Source of the DNA: Natronomonas gomsonensis
GTDB taxonomy: Archaea > Halobacteriota > Halobacteria > Halobacteriales > Haloarculaceae
Direction of reading: 5' to 3'
Assembly (NCBI RefSeq): GCF_024300825.1
Contig: NZ_CP101323.1
Span: 2,914,001-2,978,000, forward strand
Length of the DNA: 64,000 bases
Below, one piece after another: positions 28,822-51,242 of the stretch (its first letter is position 1; every line of letters begins with the position of its first letter). Both the position numbers and the translations under genes were made by a program. The notes under the pieces were generated by a model that made no database searches, was not told the DNA's origin, and saw only the letters and a program-made list of their open reading frames with translations.

Positions 28822-29340
28822 CTAGTCGTCGCTCGTCGCAGTGTCGGCGTCCGGGTCGAGCGAGGTATCCTCGATTCGGTCGGCAGCGCCCAGCACCGCA
28901 TCGTAAATCTTAGCGTACCCGGTACAGCGACAGAGGTTGCCCTTGATACCGTGCTGGATTTCTTCGCGGGTCGGATCTGGGTTCTCCTCGAGTAAAGCGA
29001 CGGACATCATCGCAATGCCGGGGGTACAGTAGCCACACTGCATTCCGAACTCGTCGACGAACCCCTGTTGGACGGGGTGGAGATCCTCGCCTTCCTCGGC
29101 CCGGTCTGCGAGCCCCTCGATGGTCAGCACGTCCGTACCCTCGGCTTGGCCGGCGAGACGCTGACAGGACTTAGTCGCCTTTCCGTCGACGATTACCGTA
29201 CAAGCGCCGCACTTGCCCGTCTCGCAACCGCGTTTCGTTCCCTTGAGTTCGAGTTCCTCACGCAGGAGCTTCGATAGCGGCACCGTTGGGTCGACCTCGA
29301 CCTCCTTTTCCTCGCCATTGACGGTGAGCGTAACGGTCAT
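28822..29340 (-). CDS. Molybdenum hydroxylase 2Fe-2S subunit 1
   Basis: 172-aa small subunit (CoxS/XdhC-type). The plant-ferredoxin-like cluster is CETGKCGACTVIVDG with a fourth Cys in TKSCQRL. The helical C-terminal domain carries the second cluster, QCGYCTPGIAMM and LCRCTGYAKI. Both clusters look complete. It passes electrons from the Mo site to FAD. The start overlaps the end of the FAD-subunit gene by 4 bp, so the two are translated together. A short acidic tail (DPDADTATSDD) follows the domain. Confidence 0.93.
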   Translation of the reverse strand: MTVTLTVNGEEKEVEVDPTVPLSKLLREELELKGTKRGCETGKCGACTVIVDGKATKSCQRLAGQAEGTDVLTIEGLADRAEEGEDLHPVQQGFVDEFGMQCGYCTPGIAMMSVALLEENPDPTREEIQHGIKGNLCRCTGYAKIYDAVLGAADRIEDTSLDPDADTATSDD

Positions 29341-30218: not shown

Positions 30219-30593
30219 GATAAGAAAACATTCCCGGCCCCGCATCATAAATGTATGTGCTGTGGTGTACCGTCTCTCACCATCTGCAGTTCACCGCGCG
30301 CAGGGAGACGAACCATGGGGTGACCACGGTGTAGCCGATTATACACCGTGCCAGCGGCGTATGACCACGCTAGGCTGAGATTTCGTCACTGTACCGTCGG
30401 CGCCTTCTGAGGTGGGTGGCGACTCCCGACAGAACATGGTTACAACCAGTACGGCGACGAATACGGCGGTTAGCGACCCATTGATACACCTCGTTTTGTA
30501 TTGAGATACACCTGTGCTGTTGCATCCGATTCCTCTGTGTCTCTAACAGCGAGACGAAAATATATATGCGACACCTCGCAATAGACGCATGGT
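30219..30593. promoter_or_regulatory. Divergent promoter region with perfect inverted repeat
   Basis: 375 bp between the FAD/2Fe-2S operon and the second large subunit. A perfect inverted repeat, CACGGTGTA at 30325-30333 and TACACCGTG at 30342-30350 (8-bp spacer), lies near the middle. TATA-like elements occur on both sides: AAAATATATATG at about 30556-30567 for the plus-strand gene and ACATTTATG at about 30246-30254 for the minus-strand gene. A shared regulator controlling both subunit operons is likely. Confidence 0.55.
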
Positions 30594-33762: not shown

Positions 33763-34593
33763 TCAGATTGACTCGAGGTCTGGTAGTAATTCGCGCCTGA
33801 TATCGTTTAGGTGTTTCGTCGTGCGCCTAACATTGGTAACCTTTGACGGGGAGATATCGGTGGTGAGGGTGTCGGGTTCGGTGCCGAGGGTGCCGAGTTC
33901 CTCGCCGCGGGGGTCGATTACGGTAGAGGCCCCGAAGTGGGTCTGGCCCCCCTCGGTGCCCGCGCGGTTGACACCGACCACGTAGACGGAGCTCGAGACG
34001 GCAATGCCGGTGAGTTCTTTCACCCACACTTCGTCGCGATTCTCCTCACCGAAACTGCAGGTCGGCACGAAGACCACGTCGGCCCCACGGAGCGCCTGGA
34101 CGCGGGCGATCTCGGGAAAGTGGCGGTCGAAGCAAATCATAACGCCGATTGTGAGACCACCAACGTCGAACACCGGCGCCCCCAAGTCACCGGGTGAGAA
34201 GTAGTAGGTCTCGTTGTAGCCGGGGCGCTGGAAGGGGTGGAGTTTGCGGTACTTGCCCGTAAGCTCTCCCCCGTCGTCGATTATCAGCGCCGTGTTGTAG
34301 TTGCGGCCGCCCGGGTATCCCTCTTCGAACACCGGTGCGACGATAGCGGTGTCGAGGTCAGCTGCGGTTTCCCGGATTCGGTCCACGAATTCGCTGTCGT
34401 CGCGGACGGCAAGCTCGAAATTGTCCGGGTCCTGCTCGGCCGGGAAGTATGGCGTGGCGAAGTACTCGGGAAGACAGGCCACGTCCGCGTCGGCCGCAGT
34501 CTCCCGCAACTCGTCTATCGCGCGCTCGAGATTCTCCTCCGGCGAGGCGTCCGGACCGGCCTCGAACTGCACAGCGGCGATGGTCGGGCTCAT
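33763..34593 (-). CDS. Nitrilase-superfamily amidohydrolase (ureidopropionase-like)
   Basis: 276-aa carbon-nitrogen hydrolase. The Glu-Lys-Cys triad is visible: Glu43 in LPEYF, Lys117 in YRKLHPFQ and Cys154 in MICFDRHFPE. ICFDxHFPE and the KLHPF context resemble N-carbamoyl amino acid hydrolases and beta-ureidopropionases. It would hydrolyse an amide or carbamoyl product of ring cleavage. Its start overlaps the cyclase-family gene end by 4 bp, so the two hydrolases are probably co-translated. Confidence 0.85.
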   Translation of the reverse strand: MSPTIAAVQFEAGPDASPEENLERAIDELRETAADADVACLPEYFATPYFPAEQDPDNFELAVRDDSEFVDRIRETAADLDTAIVAPVFEEGYPGGRNYNTALIIDDGGELTGKYRKLHPFQRPGYNETYYFSPGDLGAPVFDVGGLTIGVMICFDRHFPEIARVQALRGADVVFVPTCSFGEENRDEVWVKELTGIAVSSSVYVVGVNRAGTEGGQTHFGASTVIDPRGEELGTLGTEPDTLTTDISPSKVTNVRRTTKHLNDIRRELLPDLESI

Positions 34594-35234
34594 TTGTCGC
34601 GGATCACGAAGACCCGTGCTGGCGCACCGTCGCCGTTGGCCAGTCGCATCGGGACAACGTACGTAGTGAACTCGTCGGGTAGTCCGTCGCAGTTGACCAC
34701 GTTCTCAACGATGACCTTGTCGGCCTCGAGCAGAGTGTAGTGGTTCCGATACCCCTCGTCGCCGGGGTCGATCGCCGCGTCGGTAATCAGACCGCGCGCG
34801 CCGCGCTCAACGACGTACTCCGCGATCCCCTCCGAGTAGTAGGGGTTATCGCCGTAGAACGACTGCGTCCCTTCGTGTTCGTCGCTCCAGCCCGTGTGGA
34901 CGAAGAGGAACTCTCCTTCTTCGAGTGGGCTGGACAGGCGCTCTTTCACCTGATCGAGCGTAATCTCCGTGTTGGGTTCGGCAACGTCGCGCACGTCGGC
35001 GCGTTTCGTGGGTCGAATCGTCTCCGTCAGCTCGATGTCACCGATTCTTCGGCCGTCGGCATCGAAGTGGTACGGGGCGTCCATGTGTGTGCCGATGTGA
35101 GTCGTGGTGGCCATGAAGTCGCTCTCGTAGTCCGATTCTTCGTGTCGGACGACCCGACCTTGCCGGAACGTCGGCAGCTTCGGTGGGACGCTCGTCTCTT
35201 CGTCGACGCGGATAGATAGGTCTTGAATCTCCAT
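34590..35234 (-). CDS. Cyclase-family metal hydrolase (kynurenine formamidase-like)
   Basis: 214 aa from MEIQDLSIR (ATG at 35234); the open frame reaches 35309, but the family usually starts close to this point. The PF04199 signature HIGTHMDAPYHF (His46, His50, Asp52, His56) supplies metal ligands. Members open cyclic amides, hydrolyse formamides or act as isatin hydrolases. ATGA overlap with the nitrilase gene indicates an operon of two C-N hydrolases. The substrate is probably a lactam or formyl-amide intermediate. Confidence 0.85.
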   Translation of the reverse strand: MEIQDLSIRVDEETSVPPKLPTFRQGRVVRHEESDYESDFMATTTHIGTHMDAPYHFDADGRRIGDIELTETIRPTKRADVRDVAEPNTEITLDQVKERLSSPLEEGEFLFVHTGWSDEHEGTQSFYGDNPYYSEGIAEYVVERGARGLITDAAIDPGDEGYRNHYTLLEADKVIVENVVNCDGLPDEFTTYVVPMRLANGDGAPARVFVIRDK

Positions 35235-35365
35235 CTCCGACTCGACGTGGTTGAGCGAGATATAAATAGATTCCCACCAGACGCGATCGATTTCGGATAT
35301 CCGGCACACACGACAAGTACGGCCATCCGGTCGTCGCTTGAGCGACAGGGAGTCTACCGAGCTCG

Positions 35366-35854
35366 TCAGCCTTCGTACTCTTCGGCCGCGTGCTCGACGG
35401 CGTCGAAGATTTTGGTGTAGCCGGTGCAGCGACAGAGGTTCCCCTTGAGGTATTGTTTGATTTCCTCGCGGGTTGGGTCTGGGTTCTCCTCAAGTAGCGC
35501 CACGGTGGAGACAACGAAGCCGGGCGTGCAGTAGCCACACTGCATCCCGAACTCCTCGATGAATCCCTCTTGGACGGGGTGAAGGTCCACGCCGTCTCCA
35601 TTGTGGTCCGCCAAGCCCTCAACCGTCGTAACCTCCTTACCGTCGGCTTGGTGGGCCGGAATCAGACAGGACTTGACCGGCGTACCGTCGACGAGGGTCA
35701 TGCAGGAGCCGCACTCGCCGACCTCGCAGGCCTCCTTGGTCCCGGTCAGTTCGAGTTCGTTCCGGATGGCGTCCCGAAGCGGAACGCCGGGTTCAACCGA
35801 GAACGTCTGTTCTTCGCCGTTCAACTCGACCGTAATGTTGTCGATCGTGCTCAT
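35366..35854 (-). CDS. Molybdenum hydroxylase 2Fe-2S subunit 2
   Basis: 162-aa CoxS-type subunit, closely related to the one at 28822. First cluster CEVGECGSCMTLVDG with the later Cys in KSCLIP; second cluster QCGYCTPGFVVS and LCRCTGYTKI. The linker is the main difference between the two copies. It is coupled to the FAD subunit by a 4-bp overlap. With the other set this makes two complete heterotrimers in the island. Confidence 0.93.
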   Translation of the reverse strand: MSTIDNITVELNGEEQTFSVEPGVPLRDAIRNELELTGTKEACEVGECGSCMTLVDGTPVKSCLIPAHQADGKEVTTVEGLADHNGDGVDLHPVQEGFIEEFGMQCGYCTPGFVVSTVALLEENPDPTREEIKQYLKGNLCRCTGYTKIFDAVEHAAEEYEG

Positions 35855-36744
35855 TGTGCTGGCTCCGTGAGAGGGGGTGCATCAGACCGTCGTAGAGCGG
35901 TGGTAATCGCACGCTTAGTCATGACCCTGAATAGGTGTTTCCGGTACTCAACGTCGTCATCCACATCGTCGATCAGTTCGAGGTCCTCGACGATTGCCAT
36001 TGCGACCTCGTCAACGGTTTCCCGGTCGATTCGGTCGCCGACCAACTGCGATTCGATTTCCTCTGGGACGCGCTTCGGGACCGGTGCACCGGCGCAGTAG
36101 GCGAGTTGAGCGTCAGTGCACGTCTCACCATCGTCCGCGTCGGGGACTATCAACGCGGCGACACCGGCCGTCGACCAGCCGCCGGGGGCCTCGGTGTCGC
36201 TCGCGTACGCACCTCCTGCCCGTGCGGGCGGTCGCTCGAACTTGATTCCGGTGACGATCTCGTGGGGTTCGAGTTCCGTCAGGTAGTAATCAAGGAAGAA
36301 CTCCGAGAGGTCGTGGTGGCGGGTCTCGTCCCCATCAAAGCTGACTGCCTTGGCATCAAGACACTGGAGCGCCGGAGGCAGGTCTTGGGCCGGGTCGGCG
36401 TGAGAGACACCGCCACCGATCGTCCCTGCGTTGCGCACCGGCACGTCGCCAATCGCCTTCACGGCGTCACTGAGCAGGTCGAGGTCAGCACAAATCTCGG
36501 TCTCGAGCAACTCGGAGTAAGTCACGAGCGCGCCGATTTCGACGGTTCCATCGGTTACCGTCACCGCGTCTAGGTCGGGTATCTCGGTGATGTCTACGAG
36601 CGCGTCAGGGGAGATGAGCCCCTGCCGTAGCAGGGGCATCATGCTCTGGCCGCCGGCGACTATCTTTGCCTCGTCGGCCTCCTTCAGACGGTCCACCGCG
36701 TCGGCGAGCGAACCGGGTTGGTAATACTGCACGGAATCACCCAT
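35851..36744 (-). CDS. Molybdenum hydroxylase FAD subunit 2
   Basis: 297 aa from MGDSVQYYQPGSLAD (ATG at 36744); the open frame to 36921 begins with non-homologous sequence and is rejected. FAD motifs are IVAGGQSMMPLLRQGLI and NAGTIGGGVSHADPAQDLPP. The C-terminal domain ends with EYRKHLFRVMTKRAI. It is divergent from the first binding-protein gene at 36962, with 217 bp between. Pairing with large subunit 1 or 2 cannot be decided from sequence alone. Confidence 0.92.
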   Translation of the reverse strand: MGDSVQYYQPGSLADAVDRLKEADEAKIVAGGQSMMPLLRQGLISPDALVDITEIPDLDAVTVTDGTVEIGALVTYSELLETEICADLDLLSDAVKAIGDVPVRNAGTIGGGVSHADPAQDLPPALQCLDAKAVSFDGDETRHHDLSEFFLDYYLTELEPHEIVTGIKFERPPARAGGAYASDTEAPGGWSTAGVAALIVPDADDGETCTDAQLAYCAGAPVPKRVPEEIESQLVGDRIDRETVDEVAMAIVEDLELIDDVDDDVEYRKHLFRVMTKRAITTALRRSDAPPLTEPAQ

Positions 36745-36961: not shown

Positions 36962-38260
36962 ATGAGTAACCATGACAACCCCAGCGAGGGGAACAGCGAC
37001 CGAACTGTCACTCGGAGATCAACCCTGAAGGGACTCACTGCGGTAGCCGGCGTAGGATCGGTCGGCCTATCGGGCTGTCTCGGCGGCAACGGGGGAGGGA
37101 ACGGCAACGGCGGCGATGGCGAAGGCGGCACAATCAAAATCGGTCTTCAGGCCGATCTCACCGGTGCGCTGTCGATATACGGATTCTGGCACCGTCGCGT
37201 CCTTGAGAACTACGTCGAGGCGGTCAACGAGGACGGTGGTATCGACGGCCGTGAGGTGGAACTACTCGTCGAGGACACTGAGACCGACGCCGAAACCGGC
37301 GGGCAGGTCTTCCGGCGCCTCGTCCAACAAGAGGACGTCGACTTCGTCATCGGTTCGCAGTCCTCTGGCGTCTCAATCGCGACGAACCCGCTGGCCAAGC
37401 AGATGCAAGTACCGTACTTCCCGCTGGGAGAGGCGCCCTCGATTACCGGCGAGGACGGTAACCGCTGGGTGGTGCGAAACAACCACAGCACGGAGCACGC
37501 CGCTGAAATCGCCGTTGAACACGGGATTGAGAGCGGTTCGAAGTGGACGATTATCTACCAGGACTACGCGTTCGGCCAACAGTATCGAGACGCGGTGACC
37601 GCCGCCGTCGAACGGCGCGACGGTGAAGTACTCCAAAGCATCGGCGTGCCGGTGGGTGAAAGTGACCTGAACTCCTACCTGAACTCAGTGCCAGAGGATA
37701 CTGAAGTCCTGTTCAACGCGTTGATTGGTGCCTCGTCGCTGGGCTTCCTCCAGCAGAGCGCGGACCTCAACACGCCAGGCCAGCGACTCGGTGCCATTGC
37801 CTCCATCGAGGGCGTAGATGTCAGCGAGACCGGCAAGGGCGCGGAGGGTGCGGAGTATGTGACGATGCTCCCGCGTGACACGAGCGACGTGGACGTAGAC
37901 GGTGTCGAACAACTACGTGAGATGGCGAACCCGTCGGACAGCGACAACATCTACCTCGGTGGCCACATCAACGCTTCTTACGAGGCACTTTCGTGGATCG
38001 AAGACGCGGTAACCGCGACCGAGTGGTCCGGGTCGGGGGATCACCAGGCGCTCATCGAGTGGTTCGAGGGCGGTCCCTCGGTTGAAGGCAGCGAGCGGTA
38101 CCCACAGGGGCCGAAGTTCTTCCGCGGGGAGGACCACCAGGCGTTCATGGACATGCACATCGAGCGCATCGAGGACGGCCAGCTAACCAACGCTAAGCGG
38201 GTCGAGGTCGACGAACCCAGCTTCGAGGCGCGGGCGAACCTGGCCAGCCAGGAGTTCTGA
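36962..38260 (+). CDS. Tat-lipoprotein substrate-binding protein 1 (Leu/amide type)
   Basis: 432-aa ABC-transporter receptor. A twin-arginine signal (TRRSTLKG) and lipobox LSGC place it as a lipid-anchored surface protein, followed by a Gly/Asn linker. The body begins TIKIGLQADLTGALSIYGF, the type 1 periplasmic-binding fold of branched-chain amino acid, amide and urea receptors. TATA-like GTATAAATAG lies about 30 bp upstream. It is followed by a close paralogue at 38454. The matching permeases and ATPases are at 43093-46460. Confidence 0.9.
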   Translation: MSNHDNPSEGNSDRTVTRRSTLKGLTAVAGVGSVGLSGCLGGNGGGNGNGGDGEGGTIKIGLQADLTGALSIYGFWHRRVLENYVEAVNEDGGIDGREVELLVEDTETDAETGGQVFRRLVQQEDVDFVIGSQSSGVSIATNPLAKQMQVPYFPLGEAPSITGEDGNRWVVRNNHSTEHAAEIAVEHGIESGSKWTIIYQDYAFGQQYRDAVTAAVERRDGEVLQSIGVPVGESDLNSYLNSVPEDTEVLFNALIGASSLGFLQQSADLNTPGQRLGAIASIEGVDVSETGKGAEGAEYVTMLPRDTSDVDVDGVEQLREMANPSDSDNIYLGGHINASYEALSWIEDAVTATEWSGSGDHQALIEWFEGGPSVEGSERYPQGPKFFRGEDHQAFMDMHIERIEDGQLTNAKRVEVDEPSFEARANLASQEF

Positions 38261-38453
38261 GCCCGGAGTCGTCTGTCCGAATCACTGTTGGGCCACACAC
38301 TGTCGCATTTCTCATCCTACGAGTCGGAGTAGTGTGCCGATAGAAACTACTGTCCCTCTCGTCACAAGTTTTATGACAAGCGGGTTTATCTATGGGTTGA
38401 AGACACATACCACAGTGTGGATTGTGTTCAAAACGCCACAGAGGTAAACAAGC

Positions 38454-39704
38454 ATGAAGGGTACGAGACAATTCGTTAACAGACGTAACGTTATTCGAAC
38501 AATCGGCGCAGGGAGCGCCGTGGGTCTGGCGGGCTGTCTGGGCGGCGGCAATGGCAACGGCAATGGCAACGGCGGCGATAGCGACACCATCAAGGTTGGC
38601 CTCCAGGCTGACCTCACTGGTGCGCTGTCGACGTACGGCTTCTGGTTCAGGCGGGTACTGGAGGCATACGTTGAGGAGATTAACGAGGACGGCGGAATCG
38701 ACGGTCGCGAGGTGGAACTGCTCGTTGAGGACACCGAGACTGACGCCGAAACTGGCGGGCAGGTCTTCCGGCGACTGGCTCAGCAAGAAGGGGTCGACTT
38801 CGTCATCGGCTCCTTCTCCTCCGGTGTTAACATCGCGACGATTCCACTTGCCAAGCAGATGCAGGTGCCGTACTTCCCGGCCGGTTCGGCGCCGTCGACG
38901 ACGGGTGAGGACGGCAACCGTTGGACGATTCGGACCGCACACGAAATCACGCAGAATGCGGCGCTGGGTGTCGAGTGGGGGCTGGAGAACCTCGGGACGA
39001 ACTGGACCATCATGTACCAAGACTACGCGTTCGGCCAGCAGTGGCGGGATGCGATTCAGGAAACCATGGGTGACGACGGCGAGATTTTGGAAACGATTGG
39101 CGTCCCTGTCGGCGAGAGCGACCTCAACTCGTATCTGAACGGAGTCCCCGAGGACACCGATGTCCTGTTCAACGCTCTAATCCTGCCGTCCTCGATTAGC
39201 TTCCTGCAACAGAGCGCCGACCTGGACACCCCGGGGGCCCGCTTCGGCGACATTTCCGGAATCGAGGGGACGAACGTCTCGGACATCCAAGACGCGGGGC
39301 AGGGCGCTTCGTACATCACTGGACTCCCCCCGACGCTGGACACGGAGGGGAACAACCACCTCCGGGAACTCGCGGATGTCGAAGGTGCAAGCGAGGCGCT
39401 TGTCCGCCAGTACTGGGTCGCCTACGAGGCGATGTCGTTCATCCGTGATGGTATCGAGGCCTCCGACTGGGAGAGCCAAAAAGATCACCAGGCGTTCATC
39501 GAGTGGTTCGAGAGCGGACCATCGGTCGATGAGGGGATTTCCTACCCACAGGGTGATAAGTTCATCCGTGGAGAAGATCACCAGGCGTTCATGAACCGCT
39601 ACATCACCCAAATTTCGGGCTCGGAGCTAGATGTCGTTACGCAGATGGAACTGACGGAGCCACCGCGGCCCCCCCGCGCGAACCTTGCCGGCCAGGAGTT
39701 CTGA
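38454..39704 (+). CDS. Tat-lipoprotein substrate-binding protein 2, paralogue
   Basis: 416-aa paralogue of the preceding gene; large blocks match (for example GREVELLVEDTETDAETGGQ in both). The N-terminus has a twin-Arg motif (VNRRNVIRTIGAG) and lipobox LAGC, then a Gly/Asn linker. Differences cluster in the pocket-facing middle (NNHSTEHAAE versus TAHEITQNAA), so the two may bind different ligands and share one permease. A palindrome CCACAGTGTGG lies 34 bp upstream at 38410-38420. Confidence 0.9.
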   Translation: MKGTRQFVNRRNVIRTIGAGSAVGLAGCLGGGNGNGNGNGGDSDTIKVGLQADLTGALSTYGFWFRRVLEAYVEEINEDGGIDGREVELLVEDTETDAETGGQVFRRLAQQEGVDFVIGSFSSGVNIATIPLAKQMQVPYFPAGSAPSTTGEDGNRWTIRTAHEITQNAALGVEWGLENLGTNWTIMYQDYAFGQQWRDAIQETMGDDGEILETIGVPVGESDLNSYLNGVPEDTDVLFNALILPSSISFLQQSADLDTPGARFGDISGIEGTNVSDIQDAGQGASYITGLPPTLDTEGNNHLRELADVEGASEALVRQYWVAYEAMSFIRDGIEASDWESQKDHQAFIEWFESGPSVDEGISYPQGDKFIRGEDHQAFMNRYITQISGSELDVVTQMELTEPPRPPRANLAGQEF

Positions 39705-40665: not shown

Positions 40666-41235
40666 TCAGTCCTCAAGATCGTCAACCTGCAGACCACCGA
40701 TTCGCGGGTGGGGCCGGCCGCCGTCCGTCACGACGACAATCAACACGAGTTCGTCTGCCGCGGGCGCGTCCTCAATACGGACCGGCATCGCGTCGTAGTG
40801 GGTCCGGACGTAGGCCTCGTCCTTGTAGTGGGTCGGGACGTCGAGGACTGTCCCCGGCCCGCCGTGTTTTTTCGCGCTCGGGATGATGGCGTCGCCGCCG
40901 CCGACGGCCTCTCGCAGCGGCGTCCCGAGTTCGGGGTGGAGCATCGCCGCGACGTGTTCGAGTTCGCCGTCGGTTCCGACGATACCCCCTTTCCCGTAGC
41001 TCTCGACCCGGTCAGGTCCACCGAGCCTGTCGACGGCCGTCTCGGCGAGCTGTCCGCCCAGGTCGGCGCCCCACTCGGTGAGTAGCGACAAATCCTCCTG
41101 CCACTCCCTCGCATAGGGATTGTCGATTACGGCCGCTGCAGCGACCTTCGTGACCGGGTCGTCGAGCGCCCGTTCGCCGTCGCGTTCGGTCTTCGATTCG
41201 ATTACTGTCTGCGTCCGGATGGTCGGGTCAGTCAT
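40666..41235 (-). CDS. PF06684 (amino acid synthesis) family protein
   Basis: 189 aa from MTDPTIRTQTVIESKTERDG (ATG at 41235); a frame open to 41478 overlaps the enamidase gene and is rejected. The pattern VTKVAAAAVIDNPYA, then YGKGGIVGTDGELEHVAAML and GTVLDVPTHYKDEAYVRTHY matches the family annotated as amino acid synthesis protein, whose biochemical role is unclear. The start overlaps the enamidase stop by 4 bp, so both are made from one mRNA. Context suggests a role in handling the ring-opening intermediate. Confidence 0.8.
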   Translation of the reverse strand: MTDPTIRTQTVIESKTERDGERALDDPVTKVAAAAVIDNPYAREWQEDLSLLTEWGADLGGQLAETAVDRLGGPDRVESYGKGGIVGTDGELEHVAAMLHPELGTPLREAVGGGDAIIPSAKKHGGPGTVLDVPTHYKDEAYVRTHYDAMPVRIEDAPAADELVLIVVVTDGGRPHPRIGGLQVDDLED

Positions 41236-42377
41236 GTGTGTTCGATGGTCGCGGTCTGTTTCGCAGGGGCGGTGTTCCGGCTCCCATCGACGTGGACCTC
41301 GCCATCGACGAGCACCGTTGCTATCGCCGGATACGAGCCGGCATCGAGCGCCTCGAGAGCCGTCTCGGCTGCACTCCCTTTCGGCGCACCCATCAGCGTC
41401 AGGTCCGCCGGCCGTCCCTCCTCGATTCGGCCGGTGTCGAGGCCGTGGTGGCGGGCCGTGGTGCCGGTGGCTAGACAAAGAACCTCCTCGGGGGATACGT
41501 CGGTCATGCCACAGAGTGTTGCGGCCTCAAGCAGTACTCCGAGCGGCGTCACCCCGGTTCCGGAAGGAGTGTCGGTGCCAATCTGGATGCGGTTGAGTTC
41601 GTCGCGGTCGGCAGCCATCTCCAGTACGTCGACCGCGACGCGCTGATTTCCGGCGAGCACTAAATCTAGAACGATTTCCGTCTCGGTGACCAGTTTCGTC
41701 ACCTCATCGTCCGGGATTGGCGTCGGGCCGCCGTTGACATGGGCCGCGATATCGGGGCCGATGTCGACGAACATCTCGGCGTCTGTTGACTTCACGCCGG
41801 GAAGGCTCGTGCCGCCGCAGTGCATCAGGACTATCATGTCCCGCTCGTGACCCCAGGAGATGAGATTTCGGGCGCGTTGGCGTTCCTCAACCGGCATGAG
41901 GAATTTCAAGCGCTCGACGCCTTCCCGGTGGACATCCTCGATGTCATCCTCAGTCATGTCGCCGTCGAGAATCAGCGTGCCGCCCCTGACCTTGACGCCG
42001 CCGGGGCGGTCATTAGCGAGTGACTTCCGGGCGAGCGTGGCTAGGGACTTGGCGCTCTCGACGTCATCAGGTCGTCCGGGAAGGTGAGGTTCTCCGTTTG
42101 AGATCATCGAGGTAATCCCACCGTGCAGATAGCTCTCACACCAACCGAGCGTTTGCTGCCGTGGGGTGTAGTCGCCGAACACCGGGTGGATGTGGGAGTC
42201 GATCAGACCGGGTGTCAGGGTGAGACCGCCGGCGTCGATCTTCGTGTCCGCGGTGGTGATTGTCGTGCCCAGTTCACGAATTTTCCCGTTCTCGATATAC
42301 ACCGAATCCCCGTCGAGAATCGGCTCCTCCAGCCGCCCGGTGATAATCCGGCCGATGTTCGTGACGAGCGTGCTCAC
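41232..42377 (-). CDS. Enamidase-like amidohydrolase
   Basis: 381 aa from a GTG at 42377 (GTGA overlap with the cupin gene). A metal-dependent amidohydrolase whose motifs closely follow my memory of Eubacterium barkeri enamidase, which hydrolyses 1,4,5,6-tetrahydro-6-oxonicotinate to 2-formylglutarate. Matching points: GLIDSHIHP (His62, His64), GDYTPRQQT, HGGITSMISNGEPHLPGRP, MHCGGTSLPG (His186), AHVNGGPTPIP (His213), GTDTPSGTGVTPLG (Asp269) and the ending SRNTAPAKQ. All metal ligands are present. It sits in an operon with a cupin and a PF06684 protein. Exact substrate is inferred. Confidence 0.82.
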   Translation of the reverse strand: MSTLVTNIGRIITGRLEEPILDGDSVYIENGKIRELGTTITTADTKIDAGGLTLTPGLIDSHIHPVFGDYTPRQQTLGWCESYLHGGITSMISNGEPHLPGRPDDVESAKSLATLARKSLANDRPGGVKVRGGTLILDGDMTEDDIEDVHREGVERLKFLMPVEERQRARNLISWGHERDMIVLMHCGGTSLPGVKSTDAEMFVDIGPDIAAHVNGGPTPIPDDEVTKLVTETEIVLDLVLAGNQRVAVDVLEMAADRDELNRIQIGTDTPSGTGVTPLGVLLEAATLCGMTDVSPEEVLCLATGTTARHHGLDTGRIEEGRPADLTLMGAPKGSAAETALEALDAGSYPAIATVLVDGEVHVDGSRNTAPAKQTATIEHT

Positions 42378-42763
42378 GACTCGGACACCTCCCGGTCTCT
42401 GATTGCTGCTTCCGGGCCCTGTGGTGCAAAGATCCACAGTTTCCGGAGCGGTTCGGTCCCGACGTTGACGTGTTTGTGCTGTACGCCAGGTGGAATCACG
42501 GCCGCCTGATTCGCTGTTAGCCTGTACGTCTCGTCGTCGGTGACGATCTCCGCCTCGCCCTCAAGAACGTACACTATCTCTTCGACTTCGCGTACGTGTG
42601 GAGAGCCCTCCGCGCCCGGTTCGAAGGTGACGACCCCGACGCTGACATTCTCGACACCGACGCTTTCGTCGGCTACGATTTGACTCGCGAACGCACCGCT
42701 GCCGTATTGCGGGAGTGTCGCGGTGTCCCGTACGACGATTCCGCCGTCGCTTTCGTCGGTCAC
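42374..42763 (-). CDS. Cupin-domain protein
   Basis: 129-aa single cupin. Motif 1 is HVREVEEIVYVLEGEAEIV and motif 2 is PPGVQHKHVNVG, with His and Glu positioned to bind one metal ion. Small cupins act as dioxygenases, isomerases or sensors. It is first in the operon cupin-enamidase-PF06684, overlapping the enamidase start by 4 bp. It could process or sense the ring-opened intermediate. Confidence 0.82.
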   Translation of the reverse strand: MTDESDGGIVVRDTATLPQYGSGAFASQIVADESVGVENVSVGVVTFEPGAEGSPHVREVEEIVYVLEGEAEIVTDDETYRLTANQAAVIPPGVQHKHVNVGTEPLRKLWIFAPQGPEAAIRDREVSES

Positions 42764-43092: not shown

Positions 43093-43959
43093 ATGGCGCT
43101 GGGAAGTGACCTCGCGGTGGCGATACTGAACGGCGTCACTTGGGGACTTATCGTGGCGCTGATCGCATTAGGACTCAACCAAATCTACGGGCTGCTTGAA
43201 ATCGTCAATATGGCCCACGGATCGCTGTATATGCTCGGTGCTGTCATCGGCTGGTTTATGATAGATGCCACCGGGAGCTTCGGCGCGGCGCTGCTGGTCG
43301 CGCCCCTTGCCGTCGGCGTCATCGGGATGACCGTCGAGCGCACAATCCTCCGGCCGATTGAGGACGACCTCACGATCACTCTGATCGCGACGTTCGGCCT
43401 ATTGTTGATCTTCGATCACTTGGCGCTGATGACGTTCGGCCCCGGTACCCGCTCGGTATCCGCGCCAGTCGGTGGCACGGTGTCGTTTGCGGGCATCTCG
43501 TACTCGAAGTACCGTCTTGTCGTCGGCGTCGTCTCCATCGTCCTGATGGTATGTCTATACCTGTTCCTCTTCCGGACCCGCTATGGGACCTGGATGCGGG
43601 GCGTCCGTCAGGACCGAGAAACCGCAAGTGCGCTCGGAATTCCCACTTCGAAAGTGTTCGTCTTCACGTTCGGCCTAGGCTCGTTCTTGGCCGCGCTGGC
43701 CGGCGTGTTGCTGGCACCGATCGTCAGTGTGGGCCACCTGATGGGGCTCGACATCCTTGCGGTGGCCTTCATGGTGGTAATCGTCGGCGGCTTAGGCTCT
43801 CTGCGCGGCGTCCTCGTCGCCAGTTTGATATACGCACTCGTCGAGAACGTGAGTTCATTATTCATGACCCCCATAGAGGCACGCATCCTGACATTCGCGC
43901 TCATGATCGCATTCGTATTGGTTCGCCCTGACGGCATCTTCCGGGGTGCATCCGCGTGA
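43093..43959 (+). CDS. livH: LivH-type ABC permease
   Basis: 288-aa membrane protein of the branched-chain amino acid/urea permease family, with about eight helices. NGVTWGLIVALIALGLNQIY and GLLEIVNMAHGSLYMLG are diagnostic. VVIVGGLGSLRGVLVASLIY near the end is the coupling-region pattern. First gene of a five-gene operon with overlaps throughout (GTGA with livM). It is probably served by the two lipoprotein receptors at 36962 and 38454. Confidence 0.92.
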   Translation: MALGSDLAVAILNGVTWGLIVALIALGLNQIYGLLEIVNMAHGSLYMLGAVIGWFMIDATGSFGAALLVAPLAVGVIGMTVERTILRPIEDDLTITLIATFGLLLIFDHLALMTFGPGTRSVSAPVGGTVSFAGISYSKYRLVVGVVSIVLMVCLYLFLFRTRYGTWMRGVRQDRETASALGIPTSKVFVFTFGLGSFLAALAGVLLAPIVSVGHLMGLDILAVAFMVVIVGGLGSLRGVLVASLIYALVENVSSLFMTPIEARILTFALMIAFVLVRPDGIFRGASA

Positions 43960-45020
43960 CCCGGAACATCGAGACGCCACTCGGAACGCTGACTCCCACG
44001 AACGGGGCCTGGATTGCGCTTGCGGCTATCGCCGTAATCTACCCCTTCACTGTGGACAACTTCCTGTTGTTCTTAGGCGCGTCAGTCCTGGCGCTGGGGC
44101 TGTATGGGGCTTCCTTCGACCTAATCTACGGCTACACAGGATTGTTGAGCTTCGGTCACGCCGCGTTCTATGGCGTCGGCGCGTACGCGGCGACATTCGC
44201 AATCCAAGACTACGGTCAGGGCGTTCTCACCGCCATGCTCGTTGGATTCCTCGTTACCGCCGTCATCGCCATCGGTCTGGGTCTCATCGCGATTCGAGTC
44301 AGTTCGCACGGATTCGTGATCGTTACGATCCTGATCGTCCTAATCGCGAACCTCGCCGCGGTGAGCTTGACGTCGATTACCGGCGGTACCGACGGGATGA
44401 GCGTCATCATTCCTGAACTCGCGCTACCGATGCTCGGGGAGTTCTCGATGCTAAACCCGATGTTCAGGTACTTCTTCGTCTTGGCCGTGGTCGGAGTCTC
44501 GCTCATGGCTATGAACCGCCTCGTGAACTCGCCGATTGGCCTCGTGTTCCGAATGATCCGTGACAATGAACAGCGCGCGCGGATGCTCGGGTACAACGTT
44601 ACGGTTTACAAGCTGATTGCCTTCAGCGTCAGTGGCGCATTCGCCGGTGTGGCGGGTGTGCTCAGCATGTACGTCACTGGGTTCGTGAGCGCCTCGCACT
44701 TCGCTCTCATTGTCTCTGGTGACGCGGTCATCTACACGCTTGTTGGCGGCCGAGCGACGCTGATCGGCGCTATCTTAGGCGCGGTCCTGATCGAAGGAGC
44801 CTCGAACTTCGTGAGCGGGATTACCGATGTCTACCCGCTGATTATCGGCGCAATCTTGTTATTCACCGTGATCTTCGAGCCGGAGGGTGTCGTTGGGATG
44901 TCCCACCGCGTTCGCGACTGGCTCCAAGACCGCGGCGTATTGCCTGGGGGAGACGAACCTGAGTCGCCGACAGACCCCGATGCTGATCCCGGCGCTACCG
45001 AGGTGACTACCGATGAGTGA
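43956..45020 (+). CDS. livM: LivM-type ABC permease
   Basis: 354-aa permease partner of LivH starting at a GTG (43956) overlapping the livH stop. About ten helices; LIYGYTGLLSFGHAAFYGVG and RMIRDNEQRARMLGYNV are family hallmarks. The C-terminal 30 residues are acidic and probably cytosolic. It overlaps the ATPase gene livG by 8 bp. Confidence 0.92.
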   Translation: MTRNIETPLGTLTPTNGAWIALAAIAVIYPFTVDNFLLFLGASVLALGLYGASFDLIYGYTGLLSFGHAAFYGVGAYAATFAIQDYGQGVLTAMLVGFLVTAVIAIGLGLIAIRVSSHGFVIVTILIVLIANLAAVSLTSITGGTDGMSVIIPELALPMLGEFSMLNPMFRYFFVLAVVGVSLMAMNRLVNSPIGLVFRMIRDNEQRARMLGYNVTVYKLIAFSVSGAFAGVAGVLSMYVTGFVSASHFALIVSGDAVIYTLVGGRATLIGAILGAVLIEGASNFVSGITDVYPLIIGAILLFTVIFEPEGVVGMSHRVRDWLQDRGVLPGGDEPESPTDPDADPGATEVTTDE

Positions 45021-45759
45021 GACCATACTCAGGACGGACGGATTGACCCGCAGGTTCGGCTCACTGGTCGCTGTCAACGATGTTGACCTCGAGATTTACG
45101 AGGGCGAGATTCGTGGATTGATCGGCCCGAACGGGGCCGGTAAGACCACCGTGTTTAACATGCTCTCAGGGATGCTTGATCCGTCGTCCGGCGAAATCTG
45201 GTTTCACGATGAGGAGATTACGGACATGCCGCCGCACCAGATCACTTCTCGTGGGATGGCTCTCGCCTTTCAGATCACCAGTATCTTCCCCGAACTGACG
45301 GTCACGGAGAACGTCCTCGGGGCTATCAATGGCCAGAAGCGCTTTCTGAACCCGCTTGAACGCTACAGCGACGACGAAGCCGGCCACGAGCGTGTGATGG
45401 AACTCTTGGAGCGCGTCGGTCTCATGGAACATGCAGAAGAGACAGCAGAGAACCTCTCACACGGCGACCAGAAGGTCCTTGAGATGGCGCTCGCGCTCGC
45501 GAGCGATCCGGATATGCTCCTTCTCGACGAGCCCGCGGCAGGGCTCTCAGCCAGTGAGACACGGACCGTGGTCAACCTGCTTGAGGAACTCCACGGAGAG
45601 GTTACGATCATGCTCATCGAACACGACATGGATTTGGTGATGGAACTCGTCGATAGCCTTACCGTGCTTCATCACGGCGAGATCATTTCAGAGGGGAAAC
45701 CCTCGGAGATCAAGACGGACGAACAAGTGCAAGAAGTCTACTTCGGGAGGGAGTACTAA
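45013..45759 (+). CDS. livG: LivG-type ABC ATPase
   Basis: 248-aa ATPase. Walker A is GPNGAGKTT; the signature NLSHGDQKVLEMALALA replaces the common LSYG; Walker B is MLLLDEPAAGLS, and the switch His lies in LIEHDMDLVMEL. The C-terminal helix-loop ending VQEVYFGREY is typical of LivG. It shares one base with the livF start. Confidence 0.93.
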   Translation: MSETILRTDGLTRRFGSLVAVNDVDLEIYEGEIRGLIGPNGAGKTTVFNMLSGMLDPSSGEIWFHDEEITDMPPHQITSRGMALAFQITSIFPELTVTENVLGAINGQKRFLNPLERYSDDEAGHERVMELLERVGLMEHAEETAENLSHGDQKVLEMALALASDPDMLLLDEPAAGLSASETRTVVNLLEELHGEVTIMLIEHDMDLVMELVDSLTVLHHGEIISEGKPSEIKTDEQVQEVYFGREY

Positions 45760-46460
45760 TGCTGGAAGTGGACGCCATCAACACCTACTACGGGAAGAGC
45801 CACATCCTCCACGATGTCAGCTTCGAGGCTGACAACGACGAGGTGGTCGCTCTCCTCGGTCGCAATGGTGTCGGAAAAACCACCACCATGAAATCAATCA
45901 TCGGGTTAACCCCTCCGCGAACTGGAACGGTCCGATTCGAGGATGAGGTAATTTCAGGCAACTCAGCGAGCGAGATTGCCAACCGTGGAATCGGTTATGT
46001 CCCGCAGGACAGGGGAATGTTTCCCGACTTGACTGTCGAGGAGAACCTGACGATGGGGCTCGGGACGGCGACCCGGGATCAGAGTATCCTCGACCAGATT
46101 TACGAGCGATTCCCCCGCGTCGAGGAACGGCTCCAGCAAAAGGCCGGCACCCTCTCGGGCGGTGAACAGCAGATGGTGGCGATGGCCCGCGCACTGATGC
46201 GGGACCCGAAACTCGTGTTGATGGACGAACCCACCGAGGGGCTGATGCCCTCGTTGATTCCCGAAATCGCCGATATCACCGAAGAGATCGCCGATTCGGG
46301 ATACACTATCGTTATCGTCGAACAGAACGTTGACCTGGTAATGGACATCGCCGACCGCGTCTACCTGATGGACAACGGCCGGATCCACGAGCAGGCAACG
46401 CCAGCTGAACTGCGCGAGAATGAAGCGATCCTCGAGAAGTACCTTGGAGTTGGTATCTAA
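45759..46460 (+). CDS. livF: LivF-type ABC ATPase
   Basis: 233-aa ATPase. Walker A is GRNGVGKTT, signature LSGGEQQMVAMARALM, Walker B LVLMDEPTEGLMP, and the switch His position of LivG is replaced by Gln in VEQNVDLV, as in many LivF proteins. It ends ILEKYLGVGI, typical of the family. Stop and the next start overlap as TAATG, so the metalloenzyme gene at 46460 is translationally linked to the transporter. Confidence 0.93.
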   Translation: MLEVDAINTYYGKSHILHDVSFEADNDEVVALLGRNGVGKTTTMKSIIGLTPPRTGTVRFEDEVISGNSASEIANRGIGYVPQDRGMFPDLTVEENLTMGLGTATRDQSILDQIYERFPRVEERLQQKAGTLSGGEQQMVAMARALMRDPKLVLMDEPTEGLMPSLIPEIADITEEIADSGYTIVIVEQNVDLVMDIADRVYLMDNGRIHEQATPAELRENEAILEKYLGVGI

Positions 46461-47458
46461 TGATAGACTTCGAACTCAGTCCGATTTCGCGACGCATCGT
46501 CGAAGAACTGGCAACGGTTACTGCAGAGGAGGAGGTGCTCGTCATCTCCGATCCGGAGAAGGTGAGCGTGGGGCGTGCAATCACCAACGCAGCGCGGTCG
46601 ACGGGTGCGAACGCAACCCTATCGATAATGCCGCGACTGGATGCCCACGGGAACGAACCACCGGAACCGGTTGCCGCCGCGATGAAGGCCGCTGACGTGG
46701 CCTTCACTGCAACGACCCACGCGATCACGCACACGCAGTCCCGACTCGCGGCCTCAGACGCCGGCACGCGTGTCGTTGTCCTTCGGGGCGTCACGGAAGA
46801 CATGCTGATTGAAGGGGGCATGAACACCGACTACGAGCGGCTTCGTGAGGTCACCGCTGCTACGCGTGATGTCCTTGACGCTGCCAGCGAGGCCCACGTT
46901 ACCAGCCCTGCCGGAACGGACATCGACCTGAACTTGGAGGGCAGCTCGGCGTTCTCCCTCGATGGCTACTTCCATGATTACGGCTTCTCCGCGCTTCCAG
47001 GTGGGGAGTCGCCGACCTGTCCGCAAAAGAAACCAGGCACTGACGGGACCGTCGTCATCGACTACTCGATGGACAACATCGGCCATCTCGACGAACCGAT
47101 CGAACTCACGTTCGAGGCGGGAACGCTGACCGATATTTCGGGTGGTAGCGAGGCCGACGAGTTACAGGCTATTGTCGACGATGCTGGCAAGAACGCCGGC
47201 AATCTCGCCGAGTTCGCAATCGGGACCAACCCCGACGCGCGCCTGATCGGCAACCTCGCCGAGGACAAAAAGAAGGCCGGTACCGTCCACTTCGCTATCG
47301 GCGACGACACCAGTCTTGGTGGCACCCTAGAGAGCGAAATCCACTTCGACGGTCTCGTCCTCGACCCGACCGTCGAACTCGACGGCACCGTTGTCCTTGA
47401 CGAGGGGACGCTGGACATTGAAGGCATCCTCGACTTGGCGGACGAACTCCGGGACTAA
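46460..47458 (+). CDS. M29/NicX-family metalloenzyme
   Basis: 332-aa protein of the fold shared by M29 aminopeptidases (AmpS, aminopeptidase T) and 2,5-dihydroxypyridine 5,6-dioxygenase NicX. Metal-ligand candidates are Glu183 (LPGGESPTCPQ), Glu251 (EFAIGTNP), His277 (GTVHFAIGDD), His295 and Asp297 (EIHFDGLVLDP). The motifs favour the peptidase-like side, but the N-terminal half differs from classical M29 enzymes. It is last in the Liv-type transporter operon, so it probably acts on the imported compound or a derivative. Peptidase, amidase and dioxygenase activities remain open. Confidence 0.78.
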   Translation: MIDFELSPISRRIVEELATVTAEEEVLVISDPEKVSVGRAITNAARSTGANATLSIMPRLDAHGNEPPEPVAAAMKAADVAFTATTHAITHTQSRLAASDAGTRVVVLRGVTEDMLIEGGMNTDYERLREVTAATRDVLDAASEAHVTSPAGTDIDLNLEGSSAFSLDGYFHDYGFSALPGGESPTCPQKKPGTDGTVVIDYSMDNIGHLDEPIELTFEAGTLTDISGGSEADELQAIVDDAGKNAGNLAEFAIGTNPDARLIGNLAEDKKKAGTVHFAIGDDTSLGGTLESEIHFDGLVLDPTVELDGTVVLDEGTLDIEGILDLADELRD

Positions 47459-47524: not shown

Positions 47525-48655
47525 TCACCCGTCTTCGCGGTTGTGGATCGCCCCGTCGCGCGCTGAGAGATGCTGTGGATCCCGGTCGTTCGCGACGGCC
47601 AGAAGTTCGGCGACGATGCTGTGGGCGATTCCATAGGGCGTACTCCCACCTAAATCGAGACCGATCGGGGTGTAAACCCGCTCCAGATCGGTCTCGGTTG
47701 GTGTCGTGGCGGTCTCATCGTCGTCCATCGCCGCGAGCAGTTCCTCGAAGCGCTCGCGCGGGCCCATGAGCCCGATGTATGGAACAGGGGTCTCGAGTAG
47801 TTCCTCAAGCGCGAGTCGGTCGTCGACGAAGTTATGCGTCATAATGACGACGTAGGTGTCCTCGTCGAAGGACTCGGTGTCCCGAATCCGTGCCGGTGAG
47901 GTCGAATTAACCTCGGTGGCGGAGGGGAACTGATCCGAGTCCGTGGTTCCCCGGAACCCGACGACGTGGACGCGGAAGTCGGCGTTCGCGGCCAATTCGA
48001 CCACGGGACCGACGTCGTGGCCGGAGCCGACGACGACGAGTTTTGGGGCCGGCGTGAGCGCATCTACGAACACCTCGGCTGCCCCCGCGTCGGTTTCGAC
48101 ACGGACCACGCCACTGCGTTCTTGTTCAAGGTGGTCTTTGACCTCAGATTCGACTGCGTCCCGGACCCACGCAGGTGCGTCCGATCCCTCGACGAATCCC
48201 TTGCCGGGGCGGTAGTTTCCCCGACTCCAGGCTGGGGCGTTCCCGTCGAGAACCGTGACGACGCCGACGGGCTCATTCGCGGCAACACTGTCGAGGGCCG
48301 GCCGGTAGTCTGCAGTCAGCGGCTCAAGGAGGACATCGATGATTCCGTTACAGCCGACGCCGAGCCCCCAGACGTCCTCGTCGTCCTCCATCATGTCGTA
48401 CGTTTCAATTCGTGGACAGCCGCTATCAAGGACATCCGCTGCAATGCGATTGATTTGGTCCTCCAGACACCCAGCTGTGATGCTGCCGAGGCCATCGCCA
48501 TCGGGCGTGACGAGCATCTTCGCACCAGGACGCCGATAGGCGTTCCCTTCGACATCGGTTACGGTCGCGAGGACCGCCGGTTTATCTGCTTCGAGCAATT
48601 CGCGAGCCCGGGCATACACCGTCGACTCGGGAACGCTCCATCTGCTGTCTGTCAT
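47525..48655 (-). CDS. XdhC/CoxI-family molybdenum-enzyme maturation protein
   Basis: 376-aa protein. The N-terminal XdhC/CoxI domain has ADKPAVLATVTDVEGNAYRR and LGSITAGCLEDQI, followed by LGVGCNGIIDVLLEPL. A C-terminal Rossmann domain follows (LVVVGSGHDVGPVVELA), ending with VYTPIGLDLGGSTPYGIAHS. Such proteins bind the molybdenum cofactor and promote its sulfuration and insertion into xanthine-dehydrogenase-type enzymes. It is convergent with the transporter operon. Its presence supports the two large subunits being true sulfurated Mo hydroxylases. Confidence 0.9.
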   Translation of the reverse strand: MTDSRWSVPESTVYARARELLEADKPAVLATVTDVEGNAYRRPGAKMLVTPDGDGLGSITAGCLEDQINRIAADVLDSGCPRIETYDMMEDDEDVWGLGVGCNGIIDVLLEPLTADYRPALDSVAANEPVGVVTVLDGNAPAWSRGNYRPGKGFVEGSDAPAWVRDAVESEVKDHLEQERSGVVRVETDAGAAEVFVDALTPAPKLVVVGSGHDVGPVVELAANADFRVHVVGFRGTTDSDQFPSATEVNSTSPARIRDTESFDEDTYVVIMTHNFVDDRLALEELLETPVPYIGLMGPRERFEELLAAMDDDETATTPTETDLERVYTPIGLDLGGSTPYGIAHSIVAELLAVANDRDPQHLSARDGAIHNREDG

Positions 48656-48849: not shown

Positions 48850-50013
48850 ATGCTCGACTACTTCGATGTAGAATCGGATGTGTCCGCAGAGGAGCGGATG
48901 ATCCGGGACACGGCCCGAGAATTCGTGGAAGAGAAGGTACACCCCAATATCGGCGAGCACTGGATTGAGGGAACCTTTCCCACTCAATTGATCTCTGAAA
49001 TGGGTGAGATGGGGTTCTATGCACCCAACTTGGAGGGATATGGCTCTCCAAACGTCTCTGAGACCGCGTATGGTCTCCTGATGCAGGAACTGGAGGCCTG
49101 TGACTCTGGCCTGCGCTCGATGGCCTCCGTTCAGGGTGCGCTCGTAATGTACCCAATCCACGCCTACGGCTCGGAGGCACAGAAAGACGAGTGGCTGCCC
49201 AAACTCGGCAGGGGAGACGCGGTGGGCTGTTTCGGCCTCACCGAACCCGAACACGGTTCCAATCCGACGGCGATGGAGACCTACGCTGAGGAGGCCGATG
49301 GCGGCTACCGACTGAAGGGTGCGAAGACATGGATTACGAACTCCCCGATTGCGGATGTCGCCATCGTCTGGGCGCGTGACCGGACCGACCCTGACACGCC
49401 CGTCCGGGGATTCCTCGTGGAGACCGATCGCGACGGCGTCTCGACGAACAAGATTACCGAGAAACTCTCGCTTCGGGCCTCTATCACTGGTGAAATCGGT
49501 CTCAACGACGTGTTTGTTCCCGAGGAGAACCTGCTGCCCGGCGCGGAAGGTATGGGTGGACCACTCGGATGTTTAACACAAGCTCGTTACGGCATCGCCT
49601 GGGGCGCTATCGGCGCCGCACGTGATTGCTTCGAAACCGCCAGACAGTACGCAGAAGACCGCGACCAGTTCGGTGGCCCCATCGGTCGGTTCCAGCTACA
49701 GCAGGACAAACTCGCCGAGATGGCCACCCAGATAACGCTCGCCCAACTGCTCGCGCACCGCCTCGCGGACCTCAAAGAACGCGGCGCGATGCGCCCCCAG
49801 CACGTTTCGATGGCCAAGCGCAACAACGTCCGGATGGCCCGCGACCAGTCCCGCATCGCTCGCGAGATGCTCGGCGGTAACGGCATCACCGCCGACTACT
49901 CGCCGATGCGACACATGGCCAACCTCGAGACAGTGTATACCTACGAAGGGACCCACGACATTCATACTCTGATTCTTGGGGAAGACCTGACTGGCATCGC
50001 CGCCTACGAGTGA
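48850..50013 (+). CDS. gcdH: Glutaryl-CoA dehydrogenase (decarboxylating)
   Basis: 387-aa acyl-CoA dehydrogenase. The catalytic Glu366 is in TYEGTHDIHTLILG and the FAD contact region is GCFGLTEPEHGSNP. The residues that bind the distal carboxylate in glutaryl-CoA dehydrogenase, Arg94 and Ser98 in the human enzyme, have counterparts Arg89 and Ser93 (GLRSMASVQGALV). KRNNVRMARDQSR and MLGGNGI are further family matches. It converts glutaryl-CoA to crotonyl-CoA and CO2. Its stop overlaps the CoA-transferase start by 4 bp. A palindrome GGTGG-TAT-CCACC lies at 48804-48816. Confidence 0.87.
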   Translation: MLDYFDVESDVSAEERMIRDTAREFVEEKVHPNIGEHWIEGTFPTQLISEMGEMGFYAPNLEGYGSPNVSETAYGLLMQELEACDSGLRSMASVQGALVMYPIHAYGSEAQKDEWLPKLGRGDAVGCFGLTEPEHGSNPTAMETYAEEADGGYRLKGAKTWITNSPIADVAIVWARDRTDPDTPVRGFLVETDRDGVSTNKITEKLSLRASITGEIGLNDVFVPEENLLPGAEGMGGPLGCLTQARYGIAWGAIGAARDCFETARQYAEDRDQFGGPIGRFQLQQDKLAEMATQITLAQLLAHRLADLKERGAMRPQHVSMAKRNNVRMARDQSRIAREMLGGNGITADYSPMRHMANLETVYTYEGTHDIHTLILGEDLTGIAAYE

Positions 50014-51242
50014 CTATGGTGGGCGAAGCCAAATCCTCCGAGACCGACGTCGGCCCGCTGGATGGGCTGACGGTGCTTGACGCATCGCGGGTGCTGGTCG
50101 GCCCGTTCTGTACGATGCAACTGGGAGACCTCGGCGCGGAAGTCGTCAAGGTCGAACATCCGAAAGGGGGCGACCAGACCCGTGGCTGGCACCCGCCAAC
50201 CTACGGCGACAGCGAGGAGAGCGCCTACTACATGAGCGTCAACCGGAACAAGCGCTCTATCACGCTCAACCTCGCCAGTGAAGATGGACGGGACCTGTTC
50301 CGCGAACTCGCCGCGAAGGCTGACGTAGTCGTCGAGAACTTCCGTGTCGGACAGATGGACGAGTGGGATCTGGGCTATCAGGACCTCCGCGCGGAGAACC
50401 CCGAACTGATCTACTGCTCGCTGTCGGGATACGGCGAGTGGGGCCCGGATCGGGACCGTCCGGCCTACGACATCATCATGCAGGCCGAGGGCGGTATGAT
50501 GTCGATTACCGGCGCGGAAGACGGCCCGCCGGTCAGAATCGGCGTGGCCATCGCGGATATCGGGGCGGGGATGTACGCCGCACAGGCCATCTTGGCTGCG
50601 CTCCTAGAGCGGGAACTCGGCGACGGCACCGGTCAGAAGGTCGACGTCAGCCTGCTTGACGGCCAGGTTGCCTGGATGACCTACATGGCCTCGAACTATT
50701 TCGCGACCGGCGAATCGCCCGGGCGGATGGGGAGCAAACATCCCACCATTGCCCCCTACCAAGCGTTCCCGACCACCGACGGCTACGTCGTGGTGGCTGT
50801 GGCTTCCGAAAACATCTGGCCACGGTTCTGTAAGGCGATGGACCGGCCGGATCTCGTGGCAGACGAACGGTTTGAGACGAACGCCGACCGTGTCGAGAAT
50901 CGAGACGACCTCGACGCGATTATCGAGGCCGAAATCTCGGCGTACACGACCGCAGATATGCTCAAACTGTTGGACGAGCACGGTGTCCCAGCCTCGGATG
51001 TCAAGGAAATGGCGGAAGTCTTCGACAATCCACAGGTGCAGGCCAGAGGGATGTACCGGACTATCTCTCACCCTACGGCTGGCGAGGTGGAGATGCCGGG
51101 AAGTCCCATGCACTTCTCGCGGACGCCGACATCGATCAGACAGTACCCACCCGCACTGGGTGAACAGACAGAGGCCATCCTTCGTGAACTCGGTTACTCG
51201 AGCGAGGAGATTGAACGACTGCGAGAAGAAGACGTGCTGTGA
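50010..51242 (+). CDS. Class III (CaiB/BaiF) CoA-transferase, glutarate-type candidate
   Basis: 410-aa family III CoA-transferase: LDGLTVLDASRVLVGPFCTM at the N-terminus, then VEHPKGGDQTRGWHPP, NRNKRSITLNL, and the catalytic Asp candidate Asp154 in RPAYDIIMQAEGG. Coupling to glutaryl-CoA dehydrogenase (ATGA overlap) is the arrangement seen for glutarate:succinyl-CoA transferases (SUGCT-like). It would activate free glutarate or a derivative for the dehydrogenase. Substrate is inferred from this pairing. Confidence 0.85.
   Translation: MTMVGEAKSSETDVGPLDGLTVLDASRVLVGPFCTMQLGDLGAEVVKVEHPKGGDQTRGWHPPTYGDSEESAYYMSVNRNKRSITLNLASEDGRDLFRELAAKADVVVENFRVGQMDEWDLGYQDLRAENPELIYCSLSGYGEWGPDRDRPAYDIIMQAEGGMMSITGAEDGPPVRIGVAIADIGAGMYAAQAILAALLERELGDGTGQKVDVSLLDGQVAWMTYMASNYFATGESPGRMGSKHPTIAPYQAFPTTDGYVVVAVASENIWPRFCKAMDRPDLVADERFETNADRVENRDDLDAIIEAEISAYTTADMLKLLDEHGVPASDVKEMAEVFDNPQVQARGMYRTISHPTAGEVEMPGSPMHFSRTPTSIRQYPPALGEQTEAILRELGYSSEEIERLREEDVL

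Follow-up and report, generated by a model that had tools for sequence, protein, structure and literature searches.

Analysis of a 64,000-nucleotide stretch of DNA (the window) from Natronomonas gomsonensis, a salt-loving haloarchaeon, revealed a 381-amino-acid protein (41232-42377, minus strand) that belongs to the enamidase family and carries lysine instead of glutamic acid at one of the six metal-ligand positions. We judge this Lys-type protein to be a new variant within the known enamidase family, with a substrate that can be proposed from its sequence and its neighbours. The best explanation, and one that we consider fairly probable, is that it acts as a ring C-N amide hydrolase with a binuclear centre on a carboxylated N-heterocycle hydroxylated by molybdenum (Mo) hydroxylases, with a drain at the level of glutaryl-CoA.

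The open reading frame at 41232-42377 is genuine. It begins with GTG at position 42377, has a GGAGGTG motif ahead of the start and ends with a TGA stop at 41232. An upstream start at 42437 was rejected, since it runs into the cupin gene and the homologues start at the position of 42377. The start of the gene overlaps the stop of a gene for a Cupin_2 protein of 129 amino acids (42374-42763, minus strand; PF07883, E 2.5e-20) by 4 bp (GTGA), and its end overlaps the start of a gene for a protein of 189 amino acids (40666-41235, minus strand) by 4 bp (ATGA). The latter belongs to PF06684 (DUF1185, 'amino acid synthesis'; E 3.3e-64) and matches PDB entry 2qtp (E 4.7e-55). Because of the 4-bp overlaps at both junctions, the cupin, enamidase homologue and PF06684 genes are one operon, and they are probably translationally coupled. 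The same gene order was found in three further loci (L032, L034 and L036). PF06684 genes adjoin enamidase genes at 28 loci in total (19 Glu-type and nine Lys-type), and the partnership with the cupin and PF06684 proteins claimed in the preliminary description is thus borne out by both the overlaps and the recurrent neighbourhood.

All the motifs on which the preliminary description had based the enamidase assignment are present in the protein, and the assignment itself was confirmed by sequence search in the PDB and by structure prediction. The closest PDB relative is the enamidase of Eubacterium barkeri (Ena; 2VUN; E 2.5e-99, approximately 42% identity), followed by a dihydroorotase (E 5e-6). 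An AlphaFold2 model, built from an alignment of 37 natural sequences with plasmid rows left out, reached a pLDDT of 92 and a pTM of 0.93. A Foldseek search with this model gave 2VUN as the best match (E 1.1e-47, TM 0.94/0.93, 42% identity) and imidazolonepropionase as the runner-up (TM 0.67); the other solved structures listed had TM values of approximately 0.70 or below and identities below 20%. Since 2VUN is far ahead in both the sequence match and the fold match, the family call is correct. In Pfam the protein falls in Amidohydro_1, and none of the NCBIfam equivalogs reached its cut-off. A closer match to dihydroorotase, hydantoinase or imidazolonepropionase, which would have spoken for another family, was looked for; these models scored far under the cut-off (best 39 bits against a curated cut-off of 298) and these identities were rejected. 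The three enzymes share the amidohydrolase superfamily with the protein but differ in that their fold matches have less than 20% identity and a TM of approximately 0.70 or less. The enamidase family is rarely described in the literature that was searched. Scanning of viral contigs found no relatives, and scanning of genome contigs found one distant relative at full length, the remaining matches being partial.

Amino acids at the metal site were compared in an alignment of 52 rows and the 2VUN sequence, with homologues from haloarchaea, other archaea of the phylum, plasmids, Chloroflexota and Bacillota; among haloarchaea, homologues are present in six of 391 genomes. H62, H64, H186, H213 and D269 of the N. 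gomsonensis protein correspond to H67, H69, H193, H220 and D276 of Ena and are conserved in every one of the 52 rows. The sixth residue, Glu164 of 2VUN, which we take to be the bridging metal ligand of enamidase, is Lys158 in the N. gomsonensis protein. The earlier statement that all expected metal ligands are present thus holds for five of them and fails for the sixth. Glutamic acid occupies this position in 33 of the 52 rows and lysine in 19, the N. gomsonensis protein included; Lys158 is invariant in the aligned Lys-type rows (18/18). The profile alignment sets Lys158 on Glu164 of Ena, and in the AlphaFold2 model the residue lies on strand 156-159, the place of the bridging lysine or glutamic acid in the superfamily. 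The model strands carrying HxH, Lys, His, His and Asp are 58-63, 156-159, 182-186, 210-212 and 264-267, which is the pattern of a carboxy-Lys binuclear amidohydrolase: HxH, lysine ending strand 4, histidines on strands 5 and 6 and aspartic acid on strand 8. A bridging carboxy-Lys is known in dihydroorotase and hydantoinase. In the superfamily at large, the two metals are bridged by a carboxylated lysine or by glutamate (PMC4407906). Lys158 is most likely a carboxylated lysine. Because Glu164 is replaced by Lys158, a complete metal site of the E. barkeri type is not present, and a carboxy-Lys site is the reading we infer as best. Glu155 (in ERLKF) was considered as a shifted bridging residue and rejected, as it is unconserved outside haloarchaea whereas Lys158 is conserved.

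The Glu/Lys split follows the enamidase family tree. On a tree built without the columns concerned the trait needs two changes, and none of 500 shuffles gave a number as low. Hnr is the 6-hydroxynicotinate reductase, the maker of the enamidase substrate THON (1,4,5,6-tetrahydro-6-oxonicotinate). Scanning of all sampled loci revealed Hnr at 17 Glu-type and no Lys-type loci, and UPF0280 at 16 Glu-type and no Lys-type loci; the loci of Sulfitobacter and Comamonadaceae with annotated Hnr are Glu-type and also contain UPF0280 and two PF06684 genes. Whole-genome search found Hnr in none of the 12 genomes possessing only a Lys-type enzyme, six of which are haloarchaea including N. gomsonensis. In the six haloarchaea, a profile of 12 Hnr sequences matched nothing but short ferredoxin stretches; the same profile recovers the archaeal Hnr of genome G573 at 6.8e-231. 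At genome level the association of Lys/Glu with Hnr gave p = 0.0006 (Fisher test), with poor independence of the genomes (one to two changes). Because only one to two independent changes underlie it, the association is clade-level. The Glu/Lys split offers a one-residue marker that distinguishes a second functional group from the enamidases linked to Hnr, and this second, Lys-type group spans Haloarchaea, Chloroflexota, Actinomycetota and Alphaproteobacteria.

The operon is part of an island whose gene order is common to two other haloarchaeal genomes (G086 and G352). The island (20101-51300) has a G+C content of 60.6% compared with 56.2% in the rest of the window. Two sets of Mo-hydroxylase genes were identified. 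Set A consists of a large subunit (24987-27314, plus strand), a [2Fe-2S] subunit (28822-29340, minus strand) and a FAD subunit (29337-30248, minus strand); set B of a large subunit of the 4-hydroxybenzoyl-CoA reductase/xanthine dehydrogenase family (30594-32990, plus strand), a [2Fe-2S] subunit (35366-35854, minus strand) and a FAD subunit (35851-36741, minus strand). An XdhC-family Mo-hydroxylase maturation factor (47525-48655, minus strand) and MocA and MoeA homologues are also present. A carbon-nitrogen hydrolase (amidase; 33763-34593, minus strand; PF00795, E 4e-50) is a candidate for a side-chain amide, and next to it lies a PF04199 cyclase-family hydrolase of the kynurenine formamidase/isatin hydrolase family (34590-35309, minus strand). 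Genes of the latter family recur near Lys-type enamidase genes (L032, L034, L039, L044 and L103 in addition to this island) and occur at no Glu-type locus of the sample. Transport is represented by two LIV/urea-type ABC substrate-binding proteins (36962-39704, plus strand), the first assigned by family match and the second through paralogy found with phmmer, with synteny of both in L032 and L034, and by four genes (43093-46460, plus strand) read by sequence type, from open reading frames and synteny, as LIV-type permeases and ATPases. For the M29-family protein (46460-47458, plus strand) the only PDB match is a weak one (3.4e-6) to NicX, the 2,5-dihydroxypyridine dioxygenase. A NicX-type dioxygenase route was rejected, the similarity being weak and the same gene occurring in the Hnr cluster of G573, beside a Glu-type enamidase. 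The island also contains a glutaryl-CoA dehydrogenase homologue (48850-50013, plus strand; PDB 1siq, E 3.4e-123) and a family III CoA-transferase (50010-51242, plus strand) whose best family is succinate--glutarate CoA-transferase, below the curated cut-off. The dehydrogenase gene is the second close copy in N. gomsonensis, as is also the case in G352. Because the enzyme is common in the genus (18/20 genomes), its link to a ring pathway is indirect.

In the mechanism that we propose, a binuclear metal centre composed of H62, H64, H186, H213 and D269 and bridged by carboxylated Lys158 would activate water, and attack of the metal-hydroxide on the lactam or imide carbonyl of the ring would hydrolyse the ring C-N amide bond. 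A Mo-hydroxylase would beforehand have oxidised the substrate, a carboxy-pyridine, which is most likely a lactam or imide derived from nicotinate. The product of ring opening would then be handled by the PF06684 protein and perhaps by the cupin, and carbon would leave through the CoA-transferase and glutaryl-CoA dehydrogenase of the island as crotonyl-CoA. Proteins of PF06684 have a chorismate-mutase-like fold (PMC2954203). Their recurrence beside enamidase genes suggests that they act on the ring-opening product, for instance an enamine, and this family of unknown function thereby gains a testable context as a recurrent partner of ring-opening amidohydrolases.

The enamidase of E. barkeri opens and deaminates the THON ring (PMC9304392). 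Three fates of 6-hydroxynicotinate are described: it can be decarboxylated, hydroxylated a second time to 2,6-dihydroxynicotinate or reduced to THON, and Azorhizobium catabolises nicotinate via THON and glutarate (PMC3511419). THON, the substrate implied by the preliminary description, is weakened by the absence of Hnr from N. gomsonensis and from the five other haloarchaeal genomes with the gene and by the Glu-type nature of all 17 Hnr loci. Because one of six metal ligands has changed and Hnr is missing, the substrate is probably a related nitrogen ring other than THON, and THON reached by the known route is unlikely. Since Hnr is absent, a THON route would have to do without its known entry; the two Mo-hydroxylases could supply a second-hydroxylation route instead.

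The best-surviving alternative, to which we give roughly a minor share of belief, is that the protein is a true THON enamidase that follows the Azorhizobium route by way of (S)-2-formylglutarate and glutarate, with the lysine neutral and THON made by an unrelated reductase. The identity of 42% and the TM of 0.94 to 2VUN are consistent with it, as are the retained GDYTPRQ, PGRP, NGGPT and GTGxxP motifs and the glutarate arm within the island. Outside haloarchaea, the large subunit of Mo-hydroxylase A is nearest, among the relatives sampled, to large subunits that adjoin Hnr and Glu-type enamidases (41% to L097, and 43-48% to clostridial medium subunits), and a LIV transporter and an M29-like gene also lie beside the Glu-type enamidase and Hnr of G573. 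However, neither Hnr nor UPF0280 occurs at any Lys-type locus, Hnr is absent genome-wide in the six haloarchaea, Glu164 has given way to lysine and the loop that follows strand 4 is shorter.

Within the preferred reading, a concrete candidate is a haloarchaeal nicotinate-type pathway that needs no reductase, with the Lys-type enzyme opening the imide ring of 2,6-dihydroxynicotinate; we regard this specific form as more doubtful. Nicotinate would undergo two Mo-hydroxylations to 2,6-dihydroxynicotinate, whose imide tautomer would be hydrolysed by the Lys-type enzyme. The carbon-nitrogen hydrolase would then act as the amidase, and the product would be decarboxylated, activated by CoA transfer and passed on to glutaryl-CoA dehydrogenase. 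If this were true, the Glu-to-Lys switch would mark a change from enamide to imide chemistry.

It is improbable that the enzyme hydrolyses an unrelated cyclic amide of the hydantoin, dihydropyrimidine or lactam type, its homology to enamidase being one of fold only. A lysine bridge is typical of other amidohydrolases such as metallo-BSH (PMC13081902), and some Lys-type loci contain cytosine-deaminase-like genes or FAD monooxygenases related to PnpA/HspB; against this, the dihydroorotase, hydantoinase and imidazolonepropionase models do not come near their cut-offs, and the two Mo-hydroxylases, together with MocA, MoeA and XdhC, speak for an aromatic N-heterocycle. A mononuclear centre with uncarboxylated lysine, and hence different or weak catalysis, has a precedent in molinate hydrolase (PMC4407906) but is very improbable, as the Lys group retains the other five ligands without exception, whereas molinate hydrolase has also lost an M-alpha histidine.

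Comparison of the preferred ring C-N amide hydrolase with known systems revealed likeness to E. barkeri Ena in fold, identity, five metal ligands, substrate-side motifs and an adjoining Mo-hydroxylase, and clostridial relatives of Ena likewise have PF06684 alongside. The N. gomsonensis protein differs from Ena in Lys158 for Glu164, the shorter loop after strand 4 and the change of T194 to C187, and its locus differs in lacking Hnr and UPF0280 and in belonging to a haloarchaeal island of aerobic type that includes glutaryl-CoA dehydrogenase. Clusters of the THON type, represented by Azorhizobium in published work and by Sulfitobacter, Comamonadaceae and Rhizobium plasmids in our sample, share the combination of enamidase, Mo-hydroxylase and PF06684, in some cases with an ABC transporter, but those sampled have a Glu-type enamidase with Hnr and UPF0280, whereas the N. 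gomsonensis locus has neither gene. The PF06684-amidohydrolase pairs of Thermomicrobium, Agrobacterium, Shinella, Mariluticola and Mesorhizobium plasmids resemble the N. gomsonensis locus in that a Lys-type homologue is directly coupled to PF06684 with no Hnr at the locus; these pairs differ in their reversed gene order, lack of a cupin and other partners, such as a FAD monooxygenase in Agrobacterium and Mariluticola. No description of an archaeal pathway for nicotinate or pyridine catabolism was found in a limited literature search, and the N. gomsonensis island constitutes a complete-looking candidate for one.

Several observations concern related loci. The PF06684 gene of the same-genus relative G352 (C1:1688287-1688811, L064) contains one in-frame TGA, which may be a sequencing error or may mark the gene as a pseudogene. 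Among the haloarchaeal Lys-type loci, the more distant ones (G323, G026 and a Haloarcula plasmid) have no PF06684 nearby and have other neighbours, which counts against the preferred mechanism. Cytosine-deaminase-like amidohydrolases (L037:17124-18407 and L044:23193-24440) lie near the distant homologues of G323 and Haloarcula, hinting at other ring substrates. The locus of G573 is a candidate archaeal nicotinate cluster with a Glu-type enamidase; besides the LIV transporter and M29-like gene it contains UPF0280, an aldehyde ferredoxin oxidoreductase and a DHDPS-family gene. The archaeal Hnr proteins of G573 and G565 (L041:13963-15717 and L042:2746-4482) have long N-termini, and Pfam identified in that of G573 a ThiS/MoaD-like domain ahead of the ferredoxin domain. 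One clostridial cluster (L107 and L108) contains two different Glu-type enamidase paralogues, one beside PF06684 and the other beside Hnr.
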